A stretch of DNA of 64,000 nt, taken from positions 1 through 64,000 of the forward strand of contig WTXD01000093.1 in NCBI GenBank assembly GCA_022496205.1, given 5' to 3'. The position numbers and the translations under genes are program-made. This DNA comes from Gloeopeniophorella convolvens (lineage: Eukaryota; Basidiomycota; Agaricomycetes; Russulales). The stretch's first letter is position 1. Each line of letters starts with the position of its first letter. This document shows, piece after piece, positions 15,225-55,584 of this stretch. The notes beneath the pieces were generated by a model. It did no database searches. It was not told where the DNA came from and was given only the letters and a program-made list of their open reading frames with translations.

Positions 15225-15269
15225 TGTGATCGCTAGAGTGACTGAAGTCGCTGAAGGTAACGATGAAAA

Positions 15270-15286
15270 TTACCCCCCTCTTATAG
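15270..15286 (-). promoter_or_regulatory. Internal polypurine tract between pol and ORF3 (GypA-2)
   Basis: The minus strand reads CTATAAGAGGGGGGTAA, identical to the GypA-1 and GypA-3 sites and directly after the pol stop. Confidence 0.6.
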
Positions 15287-25807: not shown

Positions 25808-25993
25808 GCAGTTCATAACGCATGACTCCACTCCCCGAACCATGTCATGCCTTTCCTTTCACATCCAACGAGCCATATTTGGGCAAATGAGGAGACGATG
25901 CAAGCAAGACGCCTCACGGGGGAGGGACAAGCGGAGAGAACCAAAGGTATGAGCGATCACGACGTGGACTTCGGCACGCAGAACGAGGATTGA
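25808..25993 (+). pseudogene. GypA-1 ORF3, 3' end
   Basis: Last part of ORF3 after FB-2, ending with SDHDVDFGTQNED and TGA at 25991-25993, as in the other copies. Indels in this stretch put the first part out of frame with the end. Confidence 0.75.
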
Positions 25994-35998: not shown

Positions 35999-36042
35999 TG
36001 TCACGGTTGTACAATACTTTTTCTTTTTCTTCACCTGTACGA

Positions 36043-36877
36043 TGATACACCAGCACGGCGTATACGGCGTACGACGGTACATTTTCGCGATCTACGAAAC
36101 GGCTGATATGCAAAGTCCTAGGCATGTCTAGGAGCTCTCGACTGACGAGACATGGACCACAAATAGGCCCAAAGGGGGCACAAGTCGGTGGTCGCGTCGT
36201 CCTTCGGTCGATCTCAGGCGTAGGCCGCAGATGGGCAGTCGGCACCACTCAGCAACGTAGAAACGATAAGTCATTCCCACCTCTGTGTTAGCAGGCGTCG
36301 CTAGCGCATCCGCAGGTGCCTGTTTGCGATCAAACTCGCAGGATGTGAGCCGCTCCGCCGAATGCGCTAAACGCGCGGTCCCGCCGCCGCACGAAGAACG
36401 GCTGTCGCAGCTGCGCGCGCACCAAACTAGCACGTCCGCAGTTATCGCGCGACCGATCAAAGGCCGCTACGTTATACGCGAATACGCCGTTTCCTAGCTA
36501 AACATTACTGTCGAGCGAGAGGCCGTCGTGGCATAACAGAACGCTACGAGATTAGACACCGGCGCGGTCCCGGAGTAGGACTCGCACTATGTATTTAAAC
36601 CTACGGTTCAAGACAACCGAATCCAGGTTACGCTCCCCCTCCGTTCACCTTTCTAGCACGTATCGGTCAGACGTTGGCCGGTCATAGTTCGAGCGTTGTT
36701 GCAGTGCCGTGTCATTGTGCGACGCAGCTTAGCCCTTTTTCATTCGGCTCTCAGTCTTGCGTACCTCGGCAACCCCAGTCGGCGTAACTTGGGCATTAGG
36801 CACGTCTCCCCGTGCACTTGCGATACTAACGAAGCCCCTTTGCTAGATTTAGCCCTTATACTGGGCTTAGGGTATCA
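36043..36877. mobile_element. 835-bp GC-rich insertion with TGATAC termini
   Basis: Splits the GypA-3 5' LTR; the 3' LTR shows the empty site. It is flanked by ACGA on both sides (36039-36042 and 36878-36881). It starts TGATACACC and ends GGGTATCA, a short inverted repeat. It is conspicuously richer in GC and CpG than everything around it. No protein recognised. It could be a non-autonomous DNA transposon or a captured sequence. Confidence 0.7.
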
Positions 36878-37108
36878 ACGATACGAGATCCGTTCTGACT
36901 ATGTGACTCGGGGACGCTTATCGCTTATTTGTCATATGGTTCCTCCACTCTTCTTGACGCGCCCCTTTCGCTATTGGACTATTACTGTACTTCTACCTAG
37001 GAGATCCACATCAAGTCCGTTCTGACTCGGTCTGACTCAATACTAGGACATTATGTAAACCACCTCTCTTGTAGTACTTAAGGCATAGTAGTTGTACTCT
37101 AAGGCCTT

Positions 37109-37119
37109 AAGCCTGTTCT
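37109..37119 (+). promoter_or_regulatory. GypA-3 predicted transcript 5' end (self-primer)
   Basis: AAGCCTGTTCT in the LTR is the exact reverse complement of the primer site at 37374-37384. By analogy with Tf1 it would be the first bases of the RNA. No canonical TATA box lies 30 bp upstream. Confidence 0.65.
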
Positions 37120-37373
37120 CCTTTGTCAATCAACGAGGTTACCAGGGATACCGCGTGAGAGACTTGTTCGCCCAAGCATTGCGAGGTCTTCAGCTTTTGA
37201 ACTCGACGTACCGGAGGCCGATTGCCTCCACTAGTAGACATCACGTCTTACCCAGGATCCCGTGCACATTTGCGTGTACCTTCGAGAACCAGCTCACATC
37301 GAGACCAACTTACCAAACCTCACTCATCTCAGCCCTTGCCAGCACTGCTCAGGCCGGCTCAGGCCATGACATT

Positions 37374-37384
37374 AGAACAGGCTT
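37374..37384 (+). promoter_or_regulatory. GypA-3 self-primer binding site
   Basis: AGAACAGGCTT, two bases after the LTR, overlaps gag codons 3-7. It is perfectly complementary to 37109-37119. Confidence 0.75.
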
Positions 37385-37419
37385 CTTCGTCTAGAGAGCC
37401 AACGATCACAGAACTCGTA

Positions 37420-37635
37420 AGGTAGGGACACGAGAATCCGACTAGTTTACGTCACTATTATTTCTTCTACTCTATGTGTACAGTTACGGTTTTGTAAAAT
37501 CTACTTCCAAGGAGCTGTACATACAAGCAAAAGCTACGATAACTTGGAGCCAGAATAACCATATGTTGATGCGTTGAGAGGCAGTTGCAGAATTTCTGCT
37601 GAATACACCTGGCCGGATTCTCGTGACCGCTACCT
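37420..37635. mobile_element. 216-bp MITE-like insertion
   Basis: Absent from GypA-2 gag. Ends AGGTAGGG and, inverted, AGGTAGCG, followed in both by ACGAGAATCCG. Flanking TA dinucleotides (37418-37419 and 37636-37637) fit a Tc1/mariner-type target. Too short to code. Confidence 0.65.
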
Positions 37636-38160
37636 TACCAATCCGACTTCCCTACACACAGAACGAGGACGTTGCCCCTCTAGAACTTAGAGGAGAAGGA
37701 TTACGAGGAATCTTCCATGACCAAGAAAACAGTTACTATTTGGTCCTCAGTGGACAGACCCTACAAGTACACTTCTCAAGTGACCAAGGCTGGAACTATG
37801 TCTAGTGGTCCGGAATACACCAGAGATACGAAATCACTTCACCAGTGATTGCCTCCGGAATATCGAACTGAGAACAAGTTGTACAGTGGTTTCACGACCA
37901 TCCTATTCACGAGTCCCCTAAACGAACGACCCCCACATCCGCACAACCCCAGACCTCCACCAATCTCATGGGTGTTGCTCAACGCCTTGAAGAAGCCACT
38001 GTGGCACTCATTTCCCCGACACCTGATCCTGCACCCATACCAGCATGCGAGATGGCTGAAGAAACCCGAGTTAACTCCACTATCACTGCAGCTCAACGAG
38101 ATAATGGAAAGCTTATAGGAGAAGCTCCATTTATCTTTAACGGAGAATCTAAGCGATGAT

Positions 38161-38716
38161 ATCCTGAGTCCAGCTAGAGATGTAGACCAAGGGGAGTTGC
38201 TATAGTCGCCAGGGGTGATGGGATGAGGATTGGGTGGTCGGATGAGCAATAGGATGAGCTAGTGACTGCAAGGATCTGCTCAGAAACGCAAGGAAAGGAC
38301 CCGAACCCGCAGGAACATAACTTGAAGCTAACCCGAAGGTCCTGGAAGGCCTCGGGCCCTCCAGAGAGTGAGGGAGAGTCTCTGAACGCGACGCAGACCC
38401 AAAATGAGATGGGAGCACCGGGGAAAGGAAGCTTTTTGATCCAAAACACTACAGGATGCAGTACTACTGACTACGTGGGAACCCGAAGCCAAATCCGGAA
38501 GGTACAAGGTTTCCTGTGGCCCGAAAGTGTAAAGGAACCAGGAAGGAAAAGGAAGTAAAGGGAACTGCAATATACAAACGTACAGGCTCGCATCTGCGCT
38601 CAAGGGCAGTCTGGGGTCACATCCTTTGCTACCCAGCTCAACCCGATCGCTTCGCAGGGCAAAATACCCAGATCCGAGGTTTCCGAGCGTAGAGACCGCT
38701 GGACCCTAACAGTGAT
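38161..38716. other. Unclassified insertion of about 556 bp in GypA-3 gag
   Basis: Lies between the SKR and DFM codons that adjoin in GypA-2. Boundaries are uncertain by several bases (TGATAT occurs at both ends and may be the target duplication). GC-richer than its surroundings; no terminal inverted repeat, gene or pol III boxes that I can make out. Confidence 0.55.
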
Positions 38717-39717
38717 ATGCTGACTTCATGTGGTAGTTCAACCTCTATGCTTTCCTGAATGACAATAATTTGACGTTCACTGACCCCCTAAAGAAAATCT
38801 CCTTCTGCCTCACGTACTTCCGAGGCTCCATCATAACCAACTGGGTGCAGAGACAGATTGAATGGCTTGAAAAGTCAAACGAACAACGTCCTTGACCCAC
38901 CAGTACCCTATGCCACGAGGGAAACTGCTTGGACGGTGTTCAAAGACACCCTCGATAAGCGATTCCTGAACAGAGGGACGGCAGTAAACGCTAAACTCCT
39001 CTTGGCTAACATGAAGTACCGAACCCCTGAACCCATTGAGGAGTATATTAGGAAGTTTCACACCCTTGTGGAATGAGGAAACTTCCACCTTGACGCCGAA
39101 TCCACCATTATCATGTTCCTTCACTCGTTTTCAAACGCCCTTGTCTGGGAAACTGCACAACAGGGAGGAGATGTATTTGGGGTAAACCCTAGCAGCACCA
39201 GATGGACCTTCGATAAATGGGCAGAGAAGCTCTGCGATCAGCAGCTTCAGTATCAGCTCATGAAGGAGATCTACGGAGACCAGGAGAACTCAAAACTGCA
39301 GCCACGATTTCAGATATGATGACCTGGAGGAGGAGGACAGCCACCTCGAAATGACAGAGTAGTTCCCATAGACGTAGACACATTGACGGTCAACCAGACC
39401 CAAACGTTCGTCCATCAGAAGGGAAAGAAACTCACACCTGATGAATGCACCCTGTATATGCAGCAGGGGCGTTGCTTCCACTGCAGCCAACAAGGACACG
39501 TTTCACATTCCTGCCCGCAAAAGGACTCATATCCTTGGGAAACACGCCAGCGACAGGTCAATACAACCATCAATTCCACTCCCTCGACTTCCTCTTCCTC
39601 CATTTCCCCGCAGACGTTCGCAGTGTATCTCGCGAATGCATCCGACGCTAAGAAAGAGTCTATTTTCAGTGTCCTCGAGAAGGACAAGGACTTCAGCATC
39701 CAGGATTTTCAACAAGC

Positions 39718-40374
39718 TTGAGTAGAGCGATCCTTACTTACGCCATTTTCAGCACCGATGTACTAGTATGACTCTCTTATGCCGAGAATGTGATCAGAGT
39801 TCCCCTATACATCCGGAGTGCACACAAAAGGATCGACGATAAGGCCCTGGTCAATAGCGGGGCCACCAACAACATCATCAACTGGAAGGTCGTGAAGCAG
39901 CACGGCCTCCAGGTTAAACGACTTCTTCATCCCCAAATTATCCAAAATGCAGATGGAACCCGAAACCAATCTGGTGATATCACTCATTACACCGAGTTCG
40001 ATGTATCAGCTAGAGGAAAATCACATTCCTAGCGCTTCTACATTTCTAGTATTGAAGGAGAACGCATCATCCTCGGATTTCCCTGGCTACAACTGTTCTA
40101 GCCCCTGATCCTTTGAGGCAAACAACGAGTTGTAGACGACTTCCATCCCATCACACTTTTCATGTCAGACGCATCATCTTGGAGACCCACTCCTACAACC
40201 TTCCAAGCTGGTGCGCATGTATCAAACATCTGCTTCCTTGCAGAGTGGGAAGCAGAAGCACGCACTAGTGTCCAGCTTTATCTTCAAGGGGTTGAACCCT
40301 TGAACCTGGACCCAGAGGACAAGATCTACTTCAGTTCACCACCTGAACTTGTCAATGAGGTTTGCCTCTTCTGA
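39718..40374 (+). pseudogene. GypA-3 pol, aspartic protease
   Basis: Frame -1 to gag, starting at the same TTG-overlap as the other copies. Active site region ALVNSGATNNII has Asn for the catalytic Asp (GAC to AAC), so the protease would be dead. Stops at about 40030, 40099 and 40117 replace Gln/Arg/Trp codons. The end is the shared VCLF stop, TGA at 40372-40374. Confidence 0.87.
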
Positions 40375-40981
40375 GTAACACAGGCGCAGCAGTTAGCAGA
40401 AGCTGCTCTTGACCCAAACAAAATGAAACCCGATCCTATTCCTCCTCATTATAGACACTTCGACAAGGTGTTTAGTGAGGAAGCAGCACAAAGATTCCTA
40501 GAGTCACGACCATGGGATCATCCCATCGACTTGAAGGATGACGTGCCATCATCACTCCCTTGTAAAATATACCCTCTATCCCCTTCAGAACAGACGGCGT
40601 TAGAGTCCTTCCTGGATGAGCACTTGAAGAAGGGATATATCCGACCATCTAACTCCCCATACGCCTCTCCCTTCTTCTTTGTTAAAAAGAAGGATGGGAA
40701 ACTACGACCTGTACAGGACTACCATCAGCTAAATGCCTATACAGTAAAGAACAACTATCCCCTCCCGCTCATTGAGGAGATACTCCATAAACTCCAGACC
40801 ACCCGACTCTACATGAAGTTCGATGTACAATGGGGATATAACAATATCCGTATCAAGGAAGGCGACCAGTGGAAAGCTGCATTCAAAATGAATTGTGGCT
40901 TCTTCGAACCCATGGTCATGTACTTCAGACTCATGAACTCACTGTCCATGTTCCAGACCATGATGAACGAACTATTCAAAG
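40375..40981 (+). pseudogene. GypA-3 pol, reverse transcriptase N-terminal half
   Basis: Open from 40423: [59 protein letters not shown], ending at MMNELFK where GypB-2 is inserted (TSD CAAAG). The following YMDD is at 51190-51201 on the far side. Confidence 0.92.
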
Positions 40982-41637
40982 TGTCAGGACTCACTCGCGG
41001 TGTGCGCGCAGAGAGGATAGCAGAGGGGTTTGGAGAGCGTCACAAGGGGGAAGACAGAAGATGAGCTGCGATGTGCAGGAGCAGAGTGGGAACACACTAA
41101 CAGTGCTATTGCAGTGCTAGGTACAGATGAGAGTGCCACAGATGGACAGTCTGAGGACCACTGGGCGATACATGGGGGTCTTATATACTACTGGAGACCC
41201 CCCAGACGAATCTGGTCTAATTACTGATGGGGATTCCAGAGGGGATTCCCCATAACCTCTCCTCTCTGATACGCTTCTTAGTTTCCATCGCAGAGTGGGG
41301 CTTGAGGCCCCATGGAGTTCTTGATGATCAGAGTCCCAAAGAGGACGCATGAAGTGTTTCACCTTGATCAAGGTTCTGGTTACTTTGGGACGAGTAATAT
41401 GGCCATTCTGAGAGATCCCTAGTCCGGGATCTTGGGGGTATTCCAGGGTTAATTGGCCATTAGGGAGTAGGGCGAGGAATGGGGGTGAAGGGTCACGTGA
41501 TGCATTTCGACTTGTAGTCGCAATGTGAGTGGTACGCGTCGCATTGTGAGCGACGCGTAGGGTATTTACTGGTAGGGTTGGATTTGCTTTAGTGTTCTGA
41601 GCAGTTCGACCTTCTTGAGGCCTTAGTGTTCGTGACA
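40982..41637 (-). repeat. GypB-2 3' LTR (656 bp)
   Basis: Plus-strand reading TGTCAGGACTC...GTTCGTGACA. The polypurine tract AAAGAGGGGATAA (minus strand, 41650-41638) adjoins it. The pol frame runs on through most of this LTR. Confidence 0.95.
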
Positions 41638-43249
41638 TTATCCCCTCTTTATGATTGCGCTGCGCCTGAAGCGCACTGATAAGTCTGTCATGAGCGAGTG
41701 ATGGTGGTTGCGGCATAGAGGGGTGTCGTTGGTGGAATGAGTGAACAGTTTCCATGGCGTGTTTCATTTCCGAGTAAGGGACCCATGAATTTTCAGAGTC
41801 AGGGTAACCTTTCCACTTGACAAGGTATTGAACGCCTCGTCGGTTTCTAGTGGTTCGACTCTTGATAATTGTTTCAATCTCGTAGTGTCCTTCTTCATCG
41901 TCAATGATTTCAGGTGGGGGTGTTGAAAAGTTAGGTCCGTGAGCGGTGGTTTCTTTGTATGGGGAAATGAGTGAGTTGTGAAAGACAGGGTGAATGTGCC
42001 AATGGTCGGGTAGTTTGAGTTTACTGGTGACCGCGTAGGAGGTGATGACCTTGGATGGTCCATAACGTTTGGGTGCTAACTTTGCCTTTGGATGTGTTGT
42101 ACGAAGGTTCTTTGCTTCTAGCCAGACAAGATCTCCTTCTTTGTATTTGTGTTCTGGTCCGTCTGGCCTAGAGCGTTTCATGATTTCTGCGGCGTTTTCT
42201 AAGCTCGCTTTGATTTCGGTGCGGATTTGCTCGAGTAGTATGAGACGTTGTTCGGCAGATTCAACTTGGGAACCGAGTTGTGGTGGTGGAATGAATTCAG
42301 GGAGGAAGCCATACCAGGCTAGGAAGGGTGCGATATGGGTAGCTGAGTGCTGGCGATTATTGTGTGCAAACTCCATGAACGGGATGAGGTTAACCCAGTT
42401 GTCTTGTTGATAATTGCAGAAGACTCGTAGGTATTGTTCTAGTTCTTGGTTAACTCGTTCTGTTTCGCCGTCGGTCTGAGGGTGGTATGCAGTACTGAGG
42501 GTGAGATTTACTTGAAGTCGTTTCCAGACTTCTTGCATAAATTGCGATGCGAATTGCGGTCCTCTGTCGGAGATAACTTGTTTAGGAAGTCCAGTGCGTT
42601 TCCAGACATAATTGATGTAGAGGTCGGCAGTTTGTTCTGAGGTGATAGTCTTATGACAGGGAGCGATGATAGTGGCTTTGGTGAAGCGGTCAACTACGAC
42701 GTAGAGTGAGTCATATCCCTTTGAGATAGGGAGGTCGGTAATGAAGTCCATGGTGATGACTTCCCAGGGACGGTTTGGGATTTCGTTCGGATGCAGTGGA
42801 ATGGGATTAGGGTGTTGTCGTTTAGTGGTTTGGCAAGTGGCACAGCCGTCAACATATTCTTTGACGAACTTGGATATTCCAGGCCACCAGTACTCTCGAG
42901 AGACTAGTTCGTAAGTTTTCCATCTTCCTGGGTGGCCGGTGGCGAGTGACTCATGGTATTGTTGAACAATTTCTTGTCGTAATTTGGTGTCTTTAGGGAT
43001 GTAGACCTTTCCTTGATGTAAGATGAGACCGTCTTCATAGTTCCAATCTTCTAAGCCTTTCGCTATCGTACGTGGACCATTCTTCATGATTGTTGTTAAC
43101 GCTTTAGTGACTTCTTCGTCTTTGTCTTGAGATTCTCTGATGCGTCGTCGTAGGTTTTGGTCTCCAATGGTAGTGGTAGTGCCAGCGCGAGTAGCTCGGA
43201 TTGCGAAAAACTTGGTGTCCAGGAGGATTTTGTTGTCGTTTTCAGTCAT
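41117..43249 (-). CDS. GypB-2 pol, integrase and chromodomain part
   Basis: 710 open codons forming the end of the polyprotein. Zinc domain: HESLATGHPGRWKT...GCATCQTTK (about residues 78-140). Core: MDFITDLP, ISDRGPQFASQF, TERVNQELEQYL, giving D, D, E. Then integrase C-terminal SH3-like part (YKEGDLVWLEAKNLR, PVFHNSLISPYK) and chromodomain (YEIETIIKSR, VQYLVKWKGYPDSENSWVP). The first codon here is ATG inside the internal polypurine tract, but it is the continuation of RNase H, not a separate start. After the chromodomain the frame crosses the 3' polypurine tract and stays open about 170 codons into the LTR. Confidence 0.92.
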   Translation of the reverse strand: MTENDNKILLDTKFFAIRATRAGTTTTIGDQNLRRRIRESQDKDEEVTKALTTIMKNGPRTIAKGLEDWNYEDGLILHQGKVYIPKDTKLRQEIVQQYHESLATGHPGRWKTYELVSREYWWPGISKFVKEYVDGCATCQTTKRQHPNPIPLHPNEIPNRPWEVITMDFITDLPISKGYDSLYVVVDRFTKATIIAPCHKTITSEQTADLYINYVWKRTGLPKQVISDRGPQFASQFMQEVWKRLQVNLTLSTAYHPQTDGETERVNQELEQYLRVFCNYQQDNWVNLIPFMEFAHNNRQHSATHIAPFLAWYGFLPEFIPPPQLGSQVESAEQRLILLEQIRTEIKASLENAAEIMKRSRPDGPEHKYKEGDLVWLEAKNLRTTHPKAKLAPKRYGPSKVITSYAVTSKLKLPDHWHIHPVFHNSLISPYKETTAHGPNFSTPPPEIIDDEEGHYEIETIIKSRTTRNRRGVQYLVKWKGYPDSENSWVPYSEMKHAMETVHSFHQRHPSMPQPPSLAHDRLISALQAQRNHKEGIMSRTLRPQEGRTAQNTKANPTLPVNTLRVAHNATRTTHIATTSRNASRDPSPPFLALLPNGQLTLEYPQDPGLGISQNGHITRPKVTRTLIKVKHFMRPLWDSDHQELHGASSPTLRWKLRSVSERRGYGESPLESPSVIRPDSSGGSPVVYKTPMYRPVVLRLSICGTLICT

Positions 43250-43261
43250 TATCCCCTCTTT
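43247..43261 (-). promoter_or_regulatory. GypB-2 internal polypurine tract inside pol
   Basis: The minus strand reads AAAGAGGGGATAATG, identical over 15 bases to the 3' polypurine tract plus LTR start (41650-41636). Candidate central polypurine tract. Confidence 0.65.
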
Positions 43262-45520
43262 AAGATCTGGACGGCGGGACAGATGATCAGCGCGGTTGTA
43301 AATGCCGGGTTTATGAAGGAGAAGAACGTCGTATTGGGAAAGTTCAAGAGACCAGCGTGCTTGTCTTCGAGTGAGTTTCTGTTTTGTGGTGAAGTATGTC
43401 AGGTTGTTGTGGTCGGTCCAGATTTCAACACGGTGTTGAGCCCCTTGTAAATAGTGTCGATAGGTTTCAAGGGAACGGATAATAGCAAGAAGTTCTTTGT
43501 CGTGGATGTCGTAGTTCGTTCTGCGTCGGTCATAGATTTAGACAGGAATGCGACCGGGTGCCAGCGATTAATTTCGTCTGGTTGCTCCAGCACAGCGCCG
43601 ATGGCAAAGTCGGAGGCGTCTGTAATCAGACGAAATGGGCGAGTGTGGTCGGGAGTGTGAGTACTGGGGCTGAGGTGAATGCGTGCTTGAGGTTGTCAAA
43701 CGCTTGTTGACAGGCTGAGGACCACTGGAACGGAGTATCTTTACGTGTGAGGGCATGAAGTGGTCGTGCGATCTTAGAGAAATCCTTGATGAAACGTCTG
43801 TAGAAATTGCCAAAGCCGAGGAACGCTTGAACGTGCTTGAGTGTTTTTGGCGTTGGCCAATCCATGATAGCTTTGAGTTTGGCAGGGTCCATGCGAATGC
43901 GACCGGCAGAGATGATAAGGCCAAGGTATTCAATGGTTGTCTGGAAGAAGGAACATTTCTCTGGTTTGAGGTAGAGGTCGAGTTCGCGAAGTCGCTGGAG
44001 GACACGATGAACAAGGGCATAGTTTTCTTCAAGAGTGTCGGTGAAAATGAGGATGTCATCCATGTAGATAACAACACAGCCGGTTGCAATGATATCCTTG
44101 AAGTTCTCGTTCATAAAGGATTGGAACGTGCCGGGGGAGTTGCAGAGTCCAAAGAACATGACTAGGGGTTCGAATAGACCACGGTTGGTCTTGAAGGCGC
44201 TTTCCATTCATCGCCTTCTTTGATGCGAATGTTGTTGTAGCCCCAGCGGACGTCAAATTTGGTGAAGTAGCGGGCGTTCTTGAGTTTGTCGATGAGTTCA
44301 GGGATGAGTGGAAGCGGGTAAGCGTTCTTGATTGTGATGTTGTTGAGGGCGCGATAGTCTTGTACAGGACGTAATTTTCCATCTTTCTTCTTGACGAAGA
44401 AGAACGGGCTTGCCATAGGTGACTTTGAAGGGCGAATATAGCCTTTTGCAAGGTGTTCTTTGAGGAATTCGTCAAGGGCCTTTTGTTCATCAGGGGTGAG
44501 ACTGTAGATTTTACAGTCACGGAGTTGGGCATCAGGTTTCAGGTCGATAGCATGGTCCCAAGGTTTGCGAGCAGGGAGTCGTTGGGCAGCTGATTCTTCA
44601 AAGACTTTACGGTACTTGAGGAATTCTGGAGGGACAATGTCTTCGATTGTTTTCTTGGGTGCGACATTTTGTTCGGCCAATTGTTGTGAATGAGTCGTTT
44701 TGGCGCGGACAGATATAGATCCTGTCGACGGGTGTACTCAGGATCATTGACCACTGCTTGGGTGTGCGTTGATTCTGATTGGAAGAGTCGTCTGATGGTG
44801 TGAGGTCGACGGAGTCAAGGAGATATGGTTCTTGAAGGGTGTAGTCGATGTAACCACAAGATGCAAGGATTGTTTGCATTTCTATGGCGAAGTTCACGTC
44901 GGTTTCATGGATACCATCTTCATTGGTATTGATTGGTGCAGTGATAGTACGGATTAGGCCAACAGGAATGTTGTCTAGCGCGGTGGCAGAGATAGCGGAG
45001 TCGGATAGTTGGCAGGAAGGGGGACAACGGTCAAAGGTAATTGTGTCCTTTTCCCAATTGATACTAGGGTTGTGTCGTCTAAGCCAATCCGTGCCTAGGA
45101 TGAGGTCGTGGTCGCCGATGTCAGTGAGATATAGTTCAATCCATTCTTGGTGTGAGTGGCCATCTGGTGTAGGGATTTCAAGGCGTTGAATAGTAGTATG
45201 TTGAACCAAACCGGTGGCGTTATCAGTGCCATCGACATTGCGAACAGGGAAAGGTTTGACGAGTTTCTTGAGTGTGAAGTGATGCCGGTTGGCGAAGTTG
45301 GTATGCAGGATAATGCCTTCTGCGCCACTATCAACGAGTGCGCGTGCACTGATTTTTCGGCCAGAGGACTGTCCCAGGAAATTGACTCTAACAGATATGG
45401 ACGGAGTCCGTCGATTACGCGTCGTAGACGACGGTACAGGAATAGAGTCAATCGTTACAAAGGGTTCAAATTTCTCGACTCCGAAGAACCTCTCATATGT
45501 CCTCTGAACACGAAGAGTCC
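43250..45520 (-). pseudogene. GypB-2 pol: protease, RT and RNase H
   Basis: The pol frame is +1 relative to gag and already open from 46109. Protease: ALVDSGAEGIILH then [40 protein letters not shown] (44680-44162) and VVIYMDDILIFTDT (44207-43626). RNase H: TDASDFAIGAVLEQ onward. Three frame changes interrupt RT and RNase H, near 44165-44207, 43600-43640 and 43510-43530. Each matches the loss of one base in a short run that GypB-1 retains (for example CCCC to CCC before GACCACAC). Without them the polyprotein would be open, so this may be an intact gene with consensus errors. Confidence 0.88.
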
Positions 45521-47352
45521 CAATAGACAGTGCGGCTATGGGACGGTTCAAAAATCCTTCTTCTCGAAGTGGTAGATGGGGAGATGATGTCGGAAACGGC
45601 TTGCTTGGCCTCGGGAGTGGCTTGAGCATACCAGCTATTGATAGCTTGGATAGAAGTGTCGGTAGTGGAGGAGGATGATGGGTCATTCGCAATGAGATTG
45701 CGAGAGTTAGATGAGGGAGTAAAGGATCCGCCGCGTCCGCGGCCTCGGAATGATCCTCTAAAGTTTCCTCTACCTCGGCGGTTAAAATTGAACGAAGTGG
45801 AAGATGAGGGTCCGCTAGGCTTCTTGAGGCATTTGTCGGACCAGTGTCCTCCTCCTCCACAGTACATGCAAAGATTGTTGTCGCGACGACGCTTGCGCTC
45901 TTCAGTAGTGAGTGGGGGAAATGCAGTGGTCGCATTGACTTGTGAGATTTCTCCTTCTTCGAGGGAGCGGATATTGCTTCGTCCGCGTCCACCTCGGAAG
46001 GTACTCCTAGGACGGTTCGTCCAGTAGGAGTCGTCAAGTTCTTGGATAATCTTAACGACTTCCGCAAGCGTCTTTGGTTTGTTTGCGACAGCAGAGTACT
46101 TCTGCTCAAGTTGATTGTTCAAGTTATGGCGGAGAACGGGGATGGTGACAGTGTCGTCAGTGATGGCAGCTTCAGTGCGTGCAACATCCCAATCTTGGTA
46201 CCATTCGCGGAAGCGGCGAATGCCTTGTGGGTACTGGAAGAACTTGTTGATAGCGAGTTGTTTCTGGTCCGGGTTGGTGAACATAGTTTCAAAGGCGTCG
46301 ACAAAGGCTTTCCAGGTGCCGTAGGCTTTATTCGTGAGTGCGTCATTCATGCGGACGCGAGCCCATTCCCCAGCACGGGTGTTGTTTTTAAAGTGAGTAT
46401 AGGCGTCGGCGATCTTCTTGGTGTCGGTGTTATACAGGTCTTCATTGAGCGAATAATAGTTGTTAAGATGAGAAAGGAATTGGCGGGCAGTGGCTTCTGC
46501 GCCGTCAAAGGGTTCTGGTGGGCTGCCGAGTAATTTGGAAGACATCTTGGGCGGAGCAGTAGTGGTTCCTTGTGATGGTGGGTTTACTGGTGGTTTAAAT
46601 GGAGGCGGTACTTGAGTCTGACGAGATGAAGAGGCAACTGGAGTCTGAGTCGGTCCGATACGAGAGACAGGAGGCGTAGGAGTCTGGACGAAAGGTACAA
46701 GTTCTTGAGGCTGAGACGATGGAGGCGCAACTGGTTCAGACGATTCTTCAGGAATTGGGTTTTGTTGAGGAGATGGATGACGTTCCGGGGTACCAAAGCC
46801 TCCAGGTATGGTGCGAGGCGAGTTTGCAGCTAATGGGGTGCCTAATGGAGTAACTTTTCTGGAGATACGGTGGATGGTTTCTTGAGTAGATTCTAGGAGT
46901 TCGTTGACTTCGTCTGAGTCGTCTGAGGGAGGTGGTGTAGGTGGTGGTACGACGCGGGTTTGTTCAGGAGGGTCAAAGTATACTGGTTGGTTGTTGAAGT
47001 ATTGCCACCGTTTCCTTCCTTCGTTCCAACGGACTTTCTTGTCTTTGTAAAGTCCTTCTAAGGACGCCCAGGCGTAACCTTGAAGTTGATCGGCGTGTGG
47101 GTAGTAAGCGTTGAGTGCGTCGAGGACTGGTACTTGATAAGTGGTGAAAACTGTTTGCTTGGTTGCCTCGTCGAGGACGAGAGTTCGTCCAAGGACTGTG
47201 GCGATGGCGTAGACGTGTCCGCTTTCTTCGTCAAGTCTGATTTTCCTAATAATGCTTCCGGGAGGTAGATGTCGGGAGATGTCAGTGATTTCTTCTGGGC
47301 TAGGGTCGTTCCAATTGTTCTCTTTGATGTATCTTTGGAATTCGGTACTCAT
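45493..47352 (-). CDS. GypB-2 gag, intact
   Basis: 619 codons from ATG 47352 to TGA 45493. N-terminal domain of about 130 residues (VLGRTLVLDEATKQTVFTTY, ASLEGLYKDKKVRWNEGRKR) of no recognised family; Pro/Ser-rich linker; capsid domain from about residue 280 (PPEPFDGAEATARQFLSHLN, WKAFVDAFETMFTNPDQ, FREWYQDWD); Arg/Gly-rich tract; CCHC knuckle CMYCGGGGHWSDKC near residue 505; then an RGRG-rich tail. It coats element RNA and builds the particle. It is longer than usual gypsy gags because of the N-terminal domain. Pol overlaps its last 200 codons in the +1 frame. Confidence 0.92.
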   Translation of the reverse strand: MSTEFQRYIKENNWNDPSPEEITDISRHLPPGSIIRKIRLDEESGHVYAIATVLGRTLVLDEATKQTVFTTYQVPVLDALNAYYPHADQLQGYAWASLEGLYKDKKVRWNEGRKRWQYFNNQPVYFDPPEQTRVVPPPTPPPSDDSDEVNELLESTQETIHRISRKVTPLGTPLAANSPRTIPGGFGTPERHPSPQQNPIPEESSEPVAPPSSQPQELVPFVQTPTPPVSRIGPTQTPVASSSRQTQVPPPFKPPVNPPSQGTTTAPPKMSSKLLGSPPEPFDGAEATARQFLSHLNNYYSLNEDLYNTDTKKIADAYTHFKNNTRAGEWARVRMNDALTNKAYGTWKAFVDAFETMFTNPDQKQLAINKFFQYPQGIRRFREWYQDWDVARTEAAITDDTVTIPVLRHNLNNQLEQKYSAVANKPKTLAEVVKIIQELDDSYWTNRPRSTFRGGRGRSNIRSLEEGEISQVNATTAFPPLTTEERKRRRDNNLCMYCGGGGHWSDKCLKKPSGPSSSTSFNFNRRGRGNFRGSFRGRGRGGSFTPSSNSRNLIANDPSSSSTTDTSIQAINSWYAQATPEAKQAVSDIISPSTTSRRRIFEPSHSRTVYWDSSCSEDI

Positions 47353-47362
47353 AAAGAGTGAT

Positions 47363-48938
47363 TCAGATGATAGGGAGTCCTACAACTTGCACAGTGTAGG
47401 TGTTGACGTTGTGATGATATGTGATGGTGAAAGCGTGGTTAAGGATAGGACGACGTCGATCAATGGAATGGCGTTCGATGCGGGCGTAGTCTTCTTCGAT
47501 GTGGTCGCGAAAGATTCTTGTAGATCGCTTCCACAGATAGCCTTCAAAGTGCAGAGGATCGCTAGTAAAGTTGGCGAGTTCGTGGAGATCGTGGGGGAAA
47601 CTGATGATACGGAGTTGGCGACGATTGTATTCTTCTCTGCACCAGCGTCGGAAGTTGTGAAAACCAAGGTAGTTTCGGGTAGGCAAGGTTTGGCCGATGT
47701 AGATGATTTCTGGGTGGTGCGCAACGTTATCACGTTGGATGTCGATGAGTCGGGTTCTGCTGAGGTTTCTTGGATCTTCAGGGGTTGGCGTACGTTGTAC
47801 TGGTGGTAACGCTACTTGCGGTAGTGGTGTCGGAGGACGGTGTCTGGGAGACCGTCGACGATTAGGTCTGGATGCCAGGATTGCGACAGAAAGACTCTGA
47901 TAGTCTAAAATACAGGGTACAGGAGGATCTGACTAGATCTCTAAATACTGGGTGTCGGTAAGGTCACTGGTGTCTTGTAGGTCGAGGTCGCTGATAGTGT
48001 GGATGCTGGGGACGTCGTTGTCTGTTGCTTCTTGTTCTTCGTCGAGGCTGAAGTTGCTGACGATGCTTGGGGCGTTGTTCCAACTATTTTCTCCGTGTCT
48101 GATTCAGGGGTTGCTGGAGGAATAAGAGGAGGTCGTCGTGGTACAGGATACAGGAATCGTTGTTTGATTGGACAAGGTCGAGTCGAGAGGATTACTTATG
48201 ATCCAGTGTGCGTCTTGCAGGTGCAAGGTATAGTTGCAGAAGGGCCGGAGCGGATAGAGTAGAGAGGTACTAGAGGGTTTTCTTGAAGTAGGACAAGTTG
48301 AGCGAAGTGGAGACGAGTCTGGTACGGAGTAGTGATGAAACGTTCAAGATAGTAGATTCGATGGCCGGTAAGGATTTTCTCGATGAGATGTTCTTTGTGG
48401 ACTTGGACGATGTTCCACCAGAAGAGCTCGAGTTCGAGCCAGAGGTTGGTGGTTTGGATGGGTTCCCAGCGTACACCGCTAGGTCGTTGAAGGAACCAAA
48501 GAGGTGCTGTTCTTCTACAGCACTTTGGACAATGTTCCTTTCAGCGTTGAACCAGTGACTGAGGTGTAGATCGTTGTCAAGAGTTGTCCGAATGGGAGAG
48601 ATCGCCGAAGTCTTGTTAAACCGGGGTAAGCCAAGAGTCAGAGCGACTAGAGTGTCGGTAGAAAGTCGTGGACACGAGCCGAGGGTCGTAGAACTGGAGT
48701 CGGATAATCGATGAAGGACTTGATAATATTTGTCGAAGAAGCGTCGATAGGCTTGGTCAAAGTTAGGCGATTGTCGTCGTTGTAAGGATCAGATGGAGTC
48801 CTTCAAGCAATACTTGGGGTGGTGCTTCCACTGAGTCGAGTCTGAGTCAATAGTATCTCCCACAGAGGTGCTACGCACTCTAGAAATAATTGGGCAGATA
48901 CTATTTACAGGTACAAGTATTCGACTGATTTGCTAGGT
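47363..48938 (-). pseudogene. GypB-2 ORF0, distal half (unknown protein)
   Basis: Coding-like sequence between the first ORF0 stop and gag, readable in alternating frames. One block has WLELELFWWNIVQVHKEHLIEK and YYLERFITTPYQT (about 48440-48280). Another is an open stretch 47686-47363 with YLGFHNFRRWCREEYNRRQ, FPHDLHELANF and HFEGYLWKRSTR. It is colinear with GypB-1 33911-35013. At least two frame changes and stops occur. I do not recognise it. Aromatic- and Arg-rich, no signal peptide or membrane helix seen. Confidence 0.6.
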
Positions 48939-50464
48939 TTATTCAAGTTCTCCCCTTGGCACGTGGATGAGGGCGAGGAGGTTGTGATCGTGGCGAAGGA
49001 AGGGTGTGTCTCCTACTTCTCTGATGTTGTCAGGGACGCGCTGGAGGCCGGTGAAGAGTCGGAGTTGCGGGTATAGGAGGCAGGAGTCGTTGAGTTCCGA
49101 GTAGCGATCGCGGATGGAGATGATGCGGCCGTGATCAAAGTGGAGAAAGCCGTAGGTACTCAGAAATCGGCCGTCTAGGAAGTCGATGTGGCGGAGTGGG
49201 ACTCTGGCGCCTTCAAAGCACCTTTGGGTGCCAAATTCAAGGGAGAGGAGGTTGTCGACAAGGTGATAGGTGAACTCGTAGCGTATAGCTCCAAGGGGTA
49301 GTTCACGCGATGGGGGAGTGTAGACGGTGAAGGCGCAGATGTAGCGAGGGTGGTATGGATGTTCAGGTAGGCGTCGGTTGCCTTCGTTTGGACGGGTGGC
49401 TTCAAGAATGAAGTAGTGGTACTCCTCCAGGTGGGAGCGGAAGGGGCGGAGCTCAGGGAAGTAGTTATTGATATTTTCGAGGTAGAATCGAGCGGATTTG
49501 ATGCGAGGGATGTGCCAAAGGAGCTGGGAAGCGTCGAAGCGTTGAGGGCGACCTGCAAGTTGTGCTGCAACTCGCTCGTGAGGTCGGTGGAGTACACGGG
49601 GGCAAGCAGGGATGGGTTGGAGTGGTGGAGCGTCAAAATGGAAGTCGACGTAGTCAGTGAGGTCACTATCGTTTGTGAGCTCAGAGGGGGAGCGAACGCG
49701 ATGATATGGGGGAGGTGCTTGGTCAGGGAATTGCTCGACGGCGACGTCGACGAGGATCTCGAGAGCAGGTGCTGGGACAAGGTTGGGAGCGAAAATCAAA
49801 GGGGATACCGTCGCTGCTCGCGAGGGTATGGGAGTTGGTACAGGATGAGGAGTAGGAGGCGAGTAGGAGGGAGCGCAGGAGTATGCGCCGGCGATGCAGG
49901 ATGAGGAGAAGGGGCAAGGACAGACAGATGCGAAGGGGAGTAAGGAGGTGAAGGACGCGAAGAGCGAGGCTGGGGAGTGGATAAGAAAGGGGAGGCTGGA
50001 GTAGGCTCGACCAAGGGGCTGGGAGCTTGTTCACCAGTAGAGGGGCCAGGGATAGGAGACTGTGGGATAGCTGAGGTGCGTAGGATTTCTGCAAAGCGTT
50101 CTTGCACCTGTTGGGCTCTGAGACGGACTAGGAAGTCGAAGGCTGAGTGATGCGGAGAGGGAGAGCGAGGTGGTACAGTGAGGACGTCGAGGATCTGTCC
50201 TGGTTCAACGTCGACAGGAGATGGGGAGCGAGGATGATACGATGGAGAGCGAGGTGTGGGTGGAGGTCGAGGAGTAGAGGCAAGGGGAGGATACTGTAGT
50301 TCAGGTGACAGTCCACGAGTGGGAGTGCCGTAGTCAAGGATGGTTGGCGGTCCACGAGGGGGAGCGTCAAGATCAGAGTAAGACAGGGGTCGAATCAGCG
50401 CCTGGGGTTGAGCACGGTCCGAAAGGAGCGCGGTCTGAGGTGCGGTGATTCCAGAGTAAGACAC
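48939..50464 (-). CDS. GypB-2 ORF0, proximal half (unknown protein)
   Basis: Two overlapping frames, 50464-49796 and 49799-48939, that are a single frame in GypB-1, so a one-base indel near 49800 splits it here. Residues 1-190 are Pro/Ser-rich and low complexity with a few ordered blocks (FDFLVRLRAQQVQERFAEILR). The remaining 286 residues look folded: EILVDVAVEQFPDQAPPPY, FPELRPFRSHLEEYHYFI, HPRYICAFTVYTPPSRELPL, FEGARVPLRHIDFLDGRF. No ATG lies at the 5' end, and initiation is unexplained. It lies between LTR and gag, where fungal gypsy elements normally have only a short leader. Confidence 0.65.
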
Positions 50465-50493
50465 TAGAGTCGCAGCTGATCAGAGGATGTAAG

Positions 50494-50503
50494 AGACTGT
50501 CCA
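50494..50503 (-). promoter_or_regulatory. GypB-2 self-primer binding site
   Basis: The minus strand reads TGGACAGTCT, two bases inside the 5' LTR. Its reverse complement AGACTGTCCA is in the LTR (minus strand, 50672-50663), 35 bp after a TATATAA. Confidence 0.75.
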
Positions 50504-50505
50504 AA

Positions 50506-51155
50506 TGTCAGGACTCACTCGCGGGTGCGCGCAGAGAGGATAGCAGAGGGTTTGGAGAGCGTCACAGGGGGAAGACAGAAGATGAGCTGCGATATGCAGG
50601 AGCAGAGGGGAACACACTAACAGTGCTATTGCAGTGCTAGGTACAGATGAGAGTGCCACAGATGGACAGTCTGAGGACCACTGGGCGATACATGGGGGTC
50701 TTATATACTACTGGAGACCCCCAGACGAATCTGGTCTAATTACTGATGGGGATTCCAGAGGGGATTCCCCATAACCTCTCCTCTCTGATACGCTTCTTAG
50801 TTTCCATCGCAGAGTGGGGCTTGAGGCCCCATGGAGTTCTTGATGATCAGAGTCCCAAAGAGGACGCATGAAGTGTTTCACCTTGATCAAGGTTCTGGTT
50901 ACTTTGGGACGAGTAATATGGCCATTCTGAGAGATCCCTAGTCCGGGATCTTGGGGGTATTCCAGGGTTAATTGGCCATTAGGGAGTAGGGCGAGGAATG
51001 GGGGTGAAGGGTCACGTGATGCATTTCGACTTGTAGTCGCAATGTGAGTGGTACGCGTCGCATTGTGAGCGACGCGTAGGGTATTTACTGGTAGGGCTGG
51101 ATTTGCTTAGTGTTCTGAGCAGTTCGACCTCCTTGAGGCCTTAGTGTTCGTGACA
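50506..51155 (-). repeat. GypB-2 5' LTR (650 bp)
   Basis: Pairs with 40982-41637. Differences are mainly one-base gaps, for example GCGGTGTGCG against GCGGGTGCG. Confidence 0.95.
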
Positions 51156-52080
51156 CAAAGACAAGATCAACTCCGGCCTCATCTTCATTTATATGGATGA
51201 TATTCTGATCACGACCCCTGACAACATCGACCTTCACCGACACATGGTTGAGCGAGTACTTCAGAAGCTCCTTAATAATGACCTCTACCTGAAACCCAAG
51301 AAATGCACCTTTGAAAGTACGAAGGTAGACTACCTTGGTATGATCCTGAACGGTGATCAGATCGAGATGGACCCCATAAAGCTTGACGGTATCAGGGACT
51401 GGCCTGTCCCAAAGACCGTTAAGCAGGTACAAGCATTCCTCGGTTTCAGAAATTTCTACCGTCACTTTATCAGAGACTTTGGTAAGATCGCTCGACCATT
51501 GAATACCCTTACGAAGAACGATACCCCTTTCCTTTGGACTGATGATTGCCAACTTGCTTACGAACGATTAAAGGACGCCTTTCTTTCGAATCCGGTACTT
51601 ATTCACATTGATCATGATAAACCTTTTTTCCTCGAAACGGACGCTTCCTCCTTCGCGTGTGGTGCAGTACTTTCTCAAAAGGGTGTCGATAGACGATGAC
51701 ACCCTATAGCATATTACTCACATTCATTTGCACCAGTTAAACAACGTTACAACATCTATGATTGAGAACTCTTAGCTATTATAAAGGCACTAAAAGAGTG
51801 GCACCATTACCTAGCAGGAGCCAAACATCTGATCATGATACTCACGGACCACTGTAACTTATTATTTTTTAAGGACACTTGAAAGGTTTCGCATCGCCAG
51901 GCGCGATGGCACGAAGACCTTGCTGAGTTTAACTTTGTTATCTAGCACGTACCCGGGAAGCTTCACACCCCCGCCGACGCCCTCTCCCGATGACCTGATC
52001 ATGACGATGGCTATATTGAATATGAGGAGGTAGCCATACTTCCCCCCGATGTCTTTGTAAACTTGACATTCTTGACAGGA
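51156..52080 (+). pseudogene. GypA-3 pol, RT C-terminal half and RNase H
   Basis: Rejoins 40981 after GypB-2. Catalytic IYMDD at 51190-51201, then DLYLKPKKCTFESTKVDYLG and AFLGFRNFYRHFIRDF (RT thumb). RNase H starts at FFLETDASSFACGAVLSQKG. Stops at about 51698 (TGA), 51764 and 51881 break RNase H. Confidence 0.9.
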
Positions 52081-53546
52081 ACACCGTCAATCAAAGATCG
52101 TGTTCGAATCGCCCAGCTTTGGGGCGATAAGACGAAGGCTCCGACTGGATGTATGAAACAGTCGGACAGGTGGTGGCATACAGAGAAAGGCCAACTCTAG
52201 ATACCTACCAACACCGATGAGACACTCAGGTGTGATATCATTCGTGCCCATCATGATACTCCTTCTGCCGGACACCCCGGCATCACGAACACCCAGGAAC
52301 TGATACAACAGCAATGGGACTGGCCAGGTCTTAACGAGTTCGTCAAGAACTACGTTAATGGATGCGCCGACTGCAGGCGTTAAAAGTCCAAACCAATCAG
52401 CAGAAACCGGAACTCATGCCAATCTATGCCAATCCGGACGTAGGACCATTCCAGACCATGTCCATGGACTTCATCATTAAACTCCCGACATCTCGCGGTT
52501 TCGATTCTATCCTCATGGTCGTCGATCACAACTGCACAAAGGGCGCAGTATTCATACCCTGTAATGAATCAATCACCGCTGAAGGAGTGGCGAAACTTTA
52601 CCTGGACAATGTCTACCGCCATTTTGGACTCCCTCACTGTATCATCTCTGATTGTGACCCTCGTTTTGCATCCTCTTTCACTCGTGAGCTATGTCGACGT
52701 ATCGGCATCAGTCAAAACATCTCGACAGCCTATCACCCCCAAACTGACGGACAGACCGAGCGTGTTAACCAACAGCTCGAACAGTACCTCAGATTCTGGG
52801 TGAACGGCAGACAGGATGACTGGGTCGACTGGCTTCCATTTGCTGAATTCGCACATAACTCCTGGAAGAGTTCTGCGACAAAATTTTCACTTTCCCCATT
52901 TGAAGCCCTGATGGGCTATCACCCTCACTCTGATTGGCCGATAGGAACGGCCTCATCTATACCCCGGATTACTGATCGACTCAAGCTGCTGTGCAGTCAT
53001 CATCTTGCTGCGTGAGAAGCCCTGGAATGGACAGCTGACATGATGAAGTGGAAAGCCAGAGGTCAGCTGTCTACGTTGGAAGAAGGAGATCTCATATGGC
53101 TCGAAGGAAGTCACCTGCCAATGGCATACCCCACACTGAAACTGGCTCCCCGGTGCCATGGTCCCTTCCGCATTGTAAGGAAACCGTCTCCAGTAACATT
53201 CCAACTGAAACTTCCTCCATCGATGAAAGTCCATAATGTGTTTCACGTGTCTCACCTTCTCCCTTATCGCGAAACATGAGAACATGGGAAGAACTTCCCC
53301 CACCCTCTGCCTGACCTTGTCGAAGGGGAAGAAGAGTACAAAGTTGAGTCCATTCGGAACTCCTGCTTCTTCCGCCGTTAGCTGCAGTATCTCGTGAAAT
53401 GGAAGGGCTACCTGGACTCGGATAATGAGTGGATCAAGGCTTCCGACGTACACGTGGATGACCTGCTGACCTCTTATCATATGGAGCACCCTGACGCCGC
53501 AGGACCAGCGTCTGACACCCTATCTACGCGTCATGGTCGACACTGA
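52081..53546 (+). pseudogene. GypA-3 pol, integrase and chromodomain
   Basis: Zinc domain around 52240-52375 (HDTPSAGHPGITN, GCADC then a one-base loss). The core is open 52362-53015: [32 protein letters not shown], with all three acidic residues kept. C-terminal integrase PFRIVRKPSPVTFQLKLPPS and VFHVSHLLPY (53040-53279). Chromodomain YKVESIRNS with LVKWKGYLDSDNEWI (53330-53450), interrupted by a TAG at 53380. Stop at 53544-53546. Confidence 0.9.
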
Positions 53547-53563
53547 CTATAAGAGGGGGGTAA
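53547..53563 (+). promoter_or_regulatory. Internal polypurine tract between pol and ORF3 (GypA-3)
   Basis: CTATAAGAGGGGGGTAA, identical in GypA-1 and GypA-2, directly after the pol stop and 46 bp before ORF3. Confidence 0.6.
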
Positions 53564-53609
53564 TTTTCATTGACACTCTCCAGCGACTTCAGTCACTCTA
53601 ACACTCACA

Positions 53610-55016
53610 ATGTTTTACTCGACCTCTTACCCGTCTCCACTTCCCACTTCTAACATGTCTCCTGTTCCCACCGACATCTCCTCTGTTTCCTCCATCAAAT
53701 CGTCTTCCCCAGCTCCTCGCCCCATCCTAAACATCAAATACCTCCGTACCGACACTGACTCCATTGCCAGCTCACGAGCGCCAACTCCCCCTACCTTCTT
53801 TGAGGAAACCATCATAGTTACCAAAGGAGTACGTATCCCAATGCCCACTCCCATCCGCTCAGTGTCCGCCAGCATCGTCACTCCCTCGAGCCCGAAAGTA
53901 GAGGCCGTCACTGTGGAAGCGGAACCGACGAACTCTCGCATCGAAGGGTCCGTGACCATACTGGCACAGTTTGTTCCCGCCTTGACGTTACCAAGGACCA
54001 CCACACCCGTAGGACCCACTCATGTCGTCGTAGGGAATACGATCATTGACCTAGATGAAGAAGAAAGCGAGAGGAAACGCGTTAAAGGACAACAGCAGGA
54101 CTACCTCAACTACCTCATCACCATGACGTTCGAGAACACAGGATTCAACTGGGACCTGAAGTCAGTTCATACAACTGACATTAAGGCCCAGTTATCCAAA
54201 CGGTTCTATGAACAGATTGAAGACTGCTCCGCCAAATGCTGGTATGCCCTAACGACTGAGTACCGTAAGGGGATGATCGCCGAGCTCAGCAATGACCTAC
54301 CTTCGGTACTTACCCGACTGGCCGATGGAGTCTACCGAGCCCTACGCATGAAAAATCCACGACTTCCACGCGACCTTCTCACTGAAGGTTTTTTCCGTAA
54401 CGACCAGCATACGATCACCTCCAAGACCATCCGCTTGAAATACAATGGACGACTCATCATCGCCCCTCGGGTAAGGAAGGTCAGCGACGTACCTTGCCCA
54501 TTCCTAGTCGCTGTGGAAGATGAGTATGACGAAATGGACACCGGTATAGAACTCTATGCGACTCCAGTTCGGCACAAAAAACCCAACCACCTCGCTCTCA
54601 AAACTGAGGACTGTCTTATGGCGCAGGATAACTATCTCACCGGTATCATCCGAGACCTGTGGGATGATGGACTCACCGCCAACGCATACCACCTAGGACA
54701 GGAGATGTGTAAGAGGAAGCGCATCCAGTACAACATCGACGAATTGGAGCGAAAGCACACTGATGCGAATATGCACATCCTCCAAGTTCGACAAAGGCTC
54801 GAGGCAGCCTGCCTTGAGTTGCACGTACAAGCAGTCCATAACGTGCGACTTCATTCATCGAACCGCGTCACCCCTTTCCTTTCCCACCCGACGAGCCGCA
54901 TCTGGGCGAACGAGGAAACAATGCTAGCACGACGCCTTGCGAGGGAAGGACCGGCAGAGAGACACAAAGGTATAAGTGATCACGACGTGGACTTTGGTAC
55001 GCAGAACAAGGATTGA
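53610..55016 (+). CDS. GypA-3 ORF3, intact 468-residue protein of unknown function
   Basis: Complete frame from ATG 53610 to TGA 55014-55016, the only unbroken ORF3 in the window. Residues 1-130 are Ser/Pro/Thr-rich and probably disordered. Residues 145-152 read IIDLDEEE, which fits a SUMO-interacting motif (hydrophobic pair, D-L, then acidic run). A basic ERKRVKG stretch follows at 154-160 (possible nuclear signal). Residues 165-410 look mostly helical (AQLSKRFYEQIEDCSAKCWYAL, LTRLADGVYRALRMKNPRL), with charged helix-forming sequence at 365-405. No signal peptide, membrane segment, zinc motif or enzyme signature seen. The same gene follows pol in GypA-1 and GypA-2, so it belongs to the element. 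Role unknown. Confidence 0.85.
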   Translation: MFYSTSYPSPLPTSNMSPVPTDISSVSSIKSSSPAPRPILNIKYLRTDTDSIASSRAPTPPTFFEETIIVTKGVRIPMPTPIRSVSASIVTPSSPKVEAVTVEAEPTNSRIEGSVTILAQFVPALTLPRTTTPVGPTHVVVGNTIIDLDEEESERKRVKGQQQDYLNYLITMTFENTGFNWDLKSVHTTDIKAQLSKRFYEQIEDCSAKCWYALTTEYRKGMIAELSNDLPSVLTRLADGVYRALRMKNPRLPRDLLTEGFFRNDQHTITSKTIRLKYNGRLIIAPRVRKVSDVPCPFLVAVEDEYDEMDTGIELYATPVRHKKPNHLALKTEDCLMAQDNYLTGIIRDLWDDGLTANAYHLGQEMCKRKRIQYNIDELERKHTDANMHILQVRQRLEAACLELHVQAVHNVRLHSSNRVTPFLSHPTSRIWANEETMLARRLAREGPAERHKGISDHDVDFGTQNKD

Positions 55017-55050
55017 AGTTGGGGTGACTTCAGATGTAAGAGGGACGCAA

Positions 55051-55584
55051 TGTCACAGTTGTACAATACTTTTTCTTTTTCTTCACCTGTACGATACGAG
55101 ATCTGTTCTGACTATGTGACTCGGGGACGCTTATTGCTTATTTGTCATATGGTTCCTCCACTCTTCTTGACGCACCCCTTTCGCTATTGGACTATTACTG
55201 TACTTCTACCTAGGAGATCCACATCAAGTCCGTTCTGACTCGGTCTGACTCAATACTAGGACATTATGTAAACCACCTCTCTTGTAGTACTTAAGGCATA
55301 GTAGTTGTACTCTAAGGCCTTAAGCCTGTTCTCCTTTGTCAATCAACGAGGTTACCAGGGATACTGCGTGAGAGACTTGTTCGCCCAAGCATTGCGAGGT
55401 CTTCAGCTTTTGAACTCGATGTACCGGAGGCCGATTGCCTCCACTAGTAGACATCACGTCTTACCCAGGATCTCGTGCACATTTGCATGCACCTTCGAGA
55501 ACCAGCTCACATCAAGACCAACTTACCAAACCTCACTCGTCTCAGCCCTTGCCAGCACCGCTCGCGCCGGCTCAGGCTGTGACA
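55051..55584 (+). repeat. GypA-3 3' LTR (534 bp)
   Basis: Begins TGTCACAGTTG and ends GGCTGTGACA, preceded by AAGAGGGACGCAA. Uninterrupted partner of 35999-37371. Confidence 0.95.

Follow-up and report, generated by a model that had tools for sequence, protein, structure and literature searches.

A conserved third reading frame between pol and the 3′ LTR of a chromovirus in Gloeopeniophorella convolvens

An open frame of 468 codons lies between pol and the 3′ LTR of a Gypsy element, termed GypA, in the window investigated here, that is, the first 64,000 nucleotides of contig WTXD01000093.1 of Gloeopeniophorella convolvens (contig C398 in a genome of 36.7 Mb and 404 contigs). Is this frame, ORF3, a gene of the element, and if so, how was it gained and what is it kept for? 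The initial annotation had described the frame and two more copies of it within the window, and all three were recovered, the first as a plus-strand frame from ATG to TGA (Table 1).

The host element and the copies of ORF3

By the Pfam domains of a sister copy (L015), GypA is a chromovirus (Ty3/Gypsy). Three frames of L015 contained a CCHC knuckle, aspartyl protease, RT, RNase H, integrase and chromodomain, where the stretch from RT to the chromodomain shares one frame and the protease is located in the preceding one. In the gag of L015, zf-CCHC was matched at E 4.9e-05 and Retrotrans_gag scored under its cut-off. The LTR ends are of the TG...CA type (TGTCAC...GTGACA), and a polypurine tract adjoins. 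A 5 bp sequence, ATTAG, flanked L027 on both sides and no such duplication was seen in the other five copies read with both flanks. We noticed that L011, L014 and L015, on different contigs, share a common 5′ flank, CAGCTTCG(A), and have differing 3′ flanks without a target-site duplication. The LTR pairs within single copies (L010, L011, L014, L015, L017, L020, L023-L025, L027 and L028) were 91.4-99.1% identical, and many GypA insertions are therefore young.

The window copy is divided into two parts, 36878-40981 and 51156-55584, because a second Gypsy element, from a different family, has inserted into its pol. This nested element of about 10 kb (41000-51155, minus strand) has an LTR pair, 41000-41640 and 50525-51155, that is 98.7% identical, and its pol frame continues through its own purine tract into the LTR. 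The LTRs of the window GypA copy are 97.0% identical over 495 bp, and its pol contains 9 in-frame stops across 2379 nt projected onto intact pol.

Table 1. Coordinates in the window of the GypA copy with the open ORF3, of the other ORF3 copies and of the comparison element.
Feature	Position	Strand	Remarks
5′ LTR with gag and 5′ pol	36878-40981	+	5′ LTR 36878-37372; extra LTR piece 35999-36043
3′ part of pol (RT remainder, RNase H, integrase, chromodomain)	51156-53546	+	With stops; domains read from L015
Conserved non-coding block, pol stop to ORF3	53547-53609	+	44/62 positions invariant in the GypA family
Internal polypurine-tract-like sequence AAGAGGGGGGTAATTTTC	53551-53568	+	Inside the conserved block
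ORF3, window copy	53610-55016	+	Open, 468 codons; P/S/T-rich N-terminal third; basic C-terminal helix (predicted)
Short inverted repeat GAAGTTGGGGTGACTTC	55015-55031	+	Overlaps the ORF3 stop
3′ polypurine tract	55037-55050	+	Adjoins the 3′ LTR
3′ LTR of the ORF3 host element	55051-55584	+	TGTCAC...GTGACA
Second ORF3 copy	13877-15222	-	Codon 1 ATG; broken
Third ORF3 copy	12739-13291, 21062-21738, 25801-25993	+	Three pieces
Polypurine tract AAAGAGGGGATAA of the ORF3-less comparison element	41638-41650	-	Right behind pol; LTR directly after

Two interruptions break up the third copy of ORF3, one of them a minus-strand element at 13291-21066; across 12739-25993, one GypA copy sits inverted within the ORF3 of another. 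A DNA search of the genome with the window ORF3 gave at least 41 matches, the window ORF3 included, which is a lower bound since scoring covered 40 of 57 candidates. Open frames and selection were assessed below on 36 rows, the window ORF3 and 35 others, the two further window copies being left out. Among the 27 near-full-length rows, 8 were open without indels, whereas stops were present in 12, short deletions in 11 and both in four. The single-base deletions crowd a few contigs, where they are probably sequencing errors. In one copy (L049, C145:10185-11891) an insert of about 530 nt is found in ORF3, and the open frame continues across it.

Selection and occurrence in related families

In 500 base shuffles of the ORF3 stretch, read in six frames, the longest stop-free run had a mean of 120 codons and a maximum of 246. 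Pairwise dN/dS (NG86) between the window ORF3 and 29 of the 35 other rows, six short or poorly aligned rows being left out, was 0.10-0.15, with dN 0.104-0.135 and dS 0.85-1.19. Among the other copies the median was 0.06-0.07 in each dS class of 0.05 or above. A codon model of 13 copies with stops masked gave an omega of 0.069 (lnL -7083.0 against -8020.5 at omega 1 with the same kappa), and the same model gave 0.083 for 12 copies of pol. The variation shows third-position periodicity in gag, in pol and in ORF3. ORF3 is consequently a genuine protein-coding gene, neither a chance frame nor a decaying passenger, and is under purifying selection about as strong as that on pol. The initial annotation had proposed that a functional gene would have a dN/dS well below 1, and values near 1 were not seen in either analysis. 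That ORF3 is a functional gene of the element is close to certain, and it very likely aids the spread of the element, since it is kept about as strictly as the replication enzymes.

In the window lineage the constraint on ORF3 was somewhat below that on pol (dN/dS 0.10-0.15 in 8 pairs and 0.07-0.09 in 11 pairs, respectively, at similar dS). The 5 pairs with a dS below 0.02 had 5 nonsynonymous and 2 synonymous changes, numbers too few to test, though compatible with a loss of constraint once a copy has inserted.

Searching the genome at the protein level with the ORF3 of L032 gave four weak matches (E 0.001-0.004). These were ORFs behind pol in two further families, that of L043 (with L045 and L046) and that of L044, the latter with one known copy. 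The ORF3 profiles of GypA and of these families aligned by hhalign with a probability of 83% and an E of 9e-6 over 211 colinear columns, from few sequences (Neff 1.2 and 1.6). Identity was about 20% between GypA and L043, and 35-36% between L043 and L044. In the L043 family ORF3 had a dN/dS of 0.07-0.15 and was open in 4 of 5 full-length copies, and is thus likewise under purifying selection. Three element families of the genome carry ORF3 at the same position, in line with the presence in related elements that had been suggested as a check, and ORF3 predates the GypA family.

The integrases of the L043 family (59-61%) and of L044 (58%) are those most identical to that of GypA, followed by one family at 47-50% and then by another at 44-45%. 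The 47-50% family, to which the nested window element belongs, has no ORF3: pol, the purine tract AAAGAGGGGATAA and the LTR are in direct succession, and the same succession is seen in another copy (L065). In L064, from the 44-45% family, the tract and the start TGTCACGG are directly behind pol, where the LTR start was read without its pair. Since the families without ORF3 run from pol to tract to LTR directly, ORF3, by this comparison, occupies the junction of purine tract and LTR. The exact form AAGRGGGGGGTAATGTNAC had 0 matches in the genome, and the junction argument is therefore based on the ORF3-less families. Pol trees did not firmly group the ORF3-bearing families, nor was a single ORF3 clade rejected (p-AU 0.57); a single gain is likely, and stays unproven on account of these trees.

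The borders of ORF3 and its start codon

In the block between the pol stop and ORF3, 44 of 62 positions are invariant. Of 100 third positions, by comparison, 13 are invariant where ORF3 begins and 31 where pol ends. The tag AARRGGGGGGTAATTT had 50 matches in the genome and its reversed control 0; 49 of the 50 are by their coordinates located just upstream of an ORF3 match, as is the 50th, at a contig end, from the reading of L059. At or adjoining the ORF3 stop an inverted repeat is present in all three families in differing letters (GAAGTCG-AGG-CGACTTC, GAAAGC-TGGG-GCTTTC and GAAACCG-AGT-CGGTTTC), and in GypA all 7 pairs are kept in 32 of 34 rows when G-T is counted. RNA folding was clearly better than in shuffles for L015 alone (z -2.6), and the fold of L043 had the hairpin at a z of -0.7; the best fold of the window copy at the ORF3 stop was without it, and the stretch folded for L044 cut through the inverted repeat. 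In most GypA copies the 10-mer GCGACTTCAG flanks ORF3, after the internal and before the 3′ purine tract (53583-53592 and 55024-55033 in the window), where the window copy has GTGACTTCAG in its place behind ORF3.

The ATG at 53610 was rejected as a family-wide start, as codon 1 in 29 distinct GypA copies was ACG in 23, ATG in 5 and ACA in 1 (L010). Three more copies had ATG (L047 and L050) and ACG (L049), and ATG was found in the L043 and L044 families. Given its presence in L047, L050 and these two families, ATG is probably the ancestral start. Variation in ORF3 codons 2-15 was nearly all synonymous, the variable sites being distributed 1/3/11 over the codon positions, while the ten preceding codons had 4/4/2 (Fisher p 0.015). 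The codon preceding codon 1 is invariantly ACA, which puts an A at -3, and an upstream in-frame stop was present in 32 of 32 rows: in 30 of them a TAA lies 16 codons ahead of codon 1, in the window copy a TGA at 13 and in L013 a TAA at 27. Because the constraint begins at codon 1, and by virtue of the invariant ACA and the upstream stop, the protein most likely begins there, with near-cognate initiation at ACG in most copies. Met16 is invariant and may be a second start. A spliced leader may be an alternative route to the start, and splicing may be a source of the ORF3 mRNA: in GypA and L043, though not clearly in L044, the internal tract leads into a stretch rich in pyrimidines that ends with CAG, a candidate acceptor. 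A TATA-driven start was dropped, as TATAAG is kept neither in L047 and L050 nor in the other families.

The protein and its possible role

The ORF3 protein of about 53 kDa consists of 42% P, S and T in residues 1-150 and contains the basic clusters RKRVKG and KRKR. The window ORF3 had no Pfam match up to E 10, none in NCBIfam and no significant one in the PDB, which agrees with the initial annotation in that no domain is recognisable; the captured host domain in decay that it had offered as a counter-finding did not appear in these searches either. When 18 members of the family were searched against Pfam, one match was obtained, to the coiled-coil family Nuf2_DHR10-like (E 0.0014), while L043, L044 and P0002 (see below) had nothing above the cut-off (matches at E 0.03 or worse). 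Profile searching of the PDB returned 5 weak matches, the best at E 0.047. AlphaFold2 reached a mean pLDDT of 37 with 7 rows of one family and of 49.5 with 18 rows of three families, in a 319-residue C-terminal model that is confident solely in part of a long helix, at about residues 370-409. Foldseek found no match to this latter model in the PDB at E 0.001. The long, basic C-terminal helix is probably a coiled coil, as modelled. No similarity of ORF3 to pol was found by Pfam.

That ORF3 might be an envelope-like gene, of the errantivirus or plant sense-ORF type, is suggested by its place on the sense strand between pol and the 3′ LTR, but four ORF3 proteins from the three families were without a membrane segment by hydropathy, as had been claimed from the window frame. 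The best 19-residue means were 0.94-1.10 (0.98 in the window ORF3), where the usual Kyte-Doolittle limit is about 1.6, and an envelope-like gene is accordingly among the least probable explanations. Equally improbable is a single capture of part of a host gene that has since been in decay. The stops in near-full-length copies and a few weak matches in the own genome (E 0.07-0.45 on C112, C335, C1 and C189) would agree with such a fragment, whereas the omega given above, the lack of a clear host homologue among the own-genome matches and the homologues in families with integrases just 58-61% identical do not. ORF3 begins about 60 nt past the pol stop and could in principle be an extension of Pol at its C terminus, translated by readthrough or a frameshift; the in-frame stop in every row and the amino-acid changes at codons -3 to -1 make this very unlikely. 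Nor is it much more plausible that the host has domesticated the window copy and keeps it open for its own use. ORF3 has 0 stops here, as opposed to the 9 in its pol, and the initial annotation was correct in that the frame stayed open while pol decayed. Special preservation is unsupported, however: with LTRs 3% apart, the insertion seems too young for an open frame to need selection, the dN/dS of the window ORF3 is if anything above that of its family, and the openness needs no special protection given the LTR identity and the stops that break other copies.

The reading preferred here, to which we assign a probability of about 0.6, is that a chromovirus lineage acquired ORF3 as an accessory gene where the polypurine tract meets the 3′ LTR, and has retained it because the element spreads better with it. 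The protein would be translated from a subgenomic RNA, which would arise by splicing or by a transcript start close to the internal purine tract. Initiation at ACG would be weak, and the invariant Met16 would give a second start. Its P/S/T-rich N-terminal third would be disordered, the basic C-terminal helix would serve oligomerisation, and the protein could act in trans as a nuclear factor associated with nucleic acid or chromatin, either in the entry of the preintegration complex to the nucleus or in relief from silencing. The proposal of an oligomeric nuclear factor draws on these protein traits and on what is suggested for additional ORFs of plants in the accessible parts of two studies (PMC7264820; PMC11963269). 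The nuclear role itself is tentative, as basic clusters and a helix are weak signs. Somewhat less probable, though of the same order, is a cytoplasmic factor of the particle, which would work beside Gag, as a further structural protein or as a chaperone, in assembly or RNA packaging. The long helix and P/S/T-rich N-terminal third would suit a scaffold and the constraint resembles that of pol, but ORF3 is unlike the gag of the element (hhalign probability 0.1%) and has neither a zinc knuckle nor a Gag domain. The fullest form of the accessory-gene reading is doubtful: a new gene without recognisable relatives, gained at the plus-strand priming site, which left the element with two purine tracts, expressed from its own subgenomic RNA by weak initiation at ACG in the manner of complex viruses, and countering a nuclear defence of the host.

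A third gene held about as tightly as pol in three families of one genome implies that this lineage gains from more than gag and pol, and the value of ORF3 is open to test since families with and without it coexist in one genome. Together, the ACG start and the internal purine tract supply a simple model of how a new gene can be added to a retrotransposon and expressed.

Relatives outside the genome were sought in a collection of 5.8 billion proteins. Among about 8,000 scored candidates sharing the most words with ORF3, one relative was found, P0002 (354 aa on a 1282-nt contig), which is 94% identical to the ORF3 of L015 over 340 residues; with the ORF3 of the distant families none was found among about 8,000 candidates scored likewise. 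In a control search with the GypA pol, 5,686 of the 7,979 proteins scored were matched at E 1e-10, which demonstrates that the collection holds such elements, and the best near-full-length identity among the 120 matches listed was 55%. A fast-evolving ORF3 may escape word matching. IMG/VR contained no relative of ORF3 in our search.

According to the accessible part of a 2010 survey, fungal Gypsy elements have mostly one ORF (gag-pol) or two, and the legend of its Figure 3 marks an 'add. ORF' in fungal chromoviruses (PMC2864245). Like ORF3, this is an extra ORF with no role assigned in mostly fungal chromoviruses, though neither its position, sequence and distribution nor the selection on it is given there, by which sameness with ORF3 could be judged. 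In many plant elements, as described in the text available, sense additional ORFs are located between pol and the 3′ LTR in all or most copies (PMC7264820), thus with the place and strand of ORF3. These are called env-like and some have membrane segments, whereas ORF3 has none and belongs to a chromovirus of a fungal host. The additional ORFs of the plant elements Grande, RIRE2 and Retand and of the fungal Boty have a similar place but are, in the same partial sources, antisense, in contrast to ORF3, and a role in nuclear regulation has been suggested for the plant ones (PMC7264820; PMC11963269). The accessible part of PMC3248453 does not use the term 'additional ORF'. Additional ORFs in LTR elements are thus already known, and by its sequence ORF3 is one of them, being conserved between pol and the 3′ LTR in many copies. 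In what we could see of the literature outside subscription journals and preprints, no account was found of a sense, strongly selected additional ORF with such borders in chromoviruses.

LTR elements of bdelloid rotifers have reportedly captured extra ORFs (PMC5408684); as with ORF3, genes were added to standard LTR elements, a likeness by description only and in other hosts. Retroviruses possess small regulatory accessory genes near the 3′ end and make use of non-AUG initiation, which is an analogy to ORF3 and its near-cognate start without a link in sequence. In GypA we also noticed that, between the LTR end and the gag ATG of L015, L014 and L024, a stretch of about 110-150 codons ahead of the usual start of gag is conserved in coding style. 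No ATG opens this coding-like stretch in L014, and translation of gag, too, may begin at a codon other than AUG or within the LTR.
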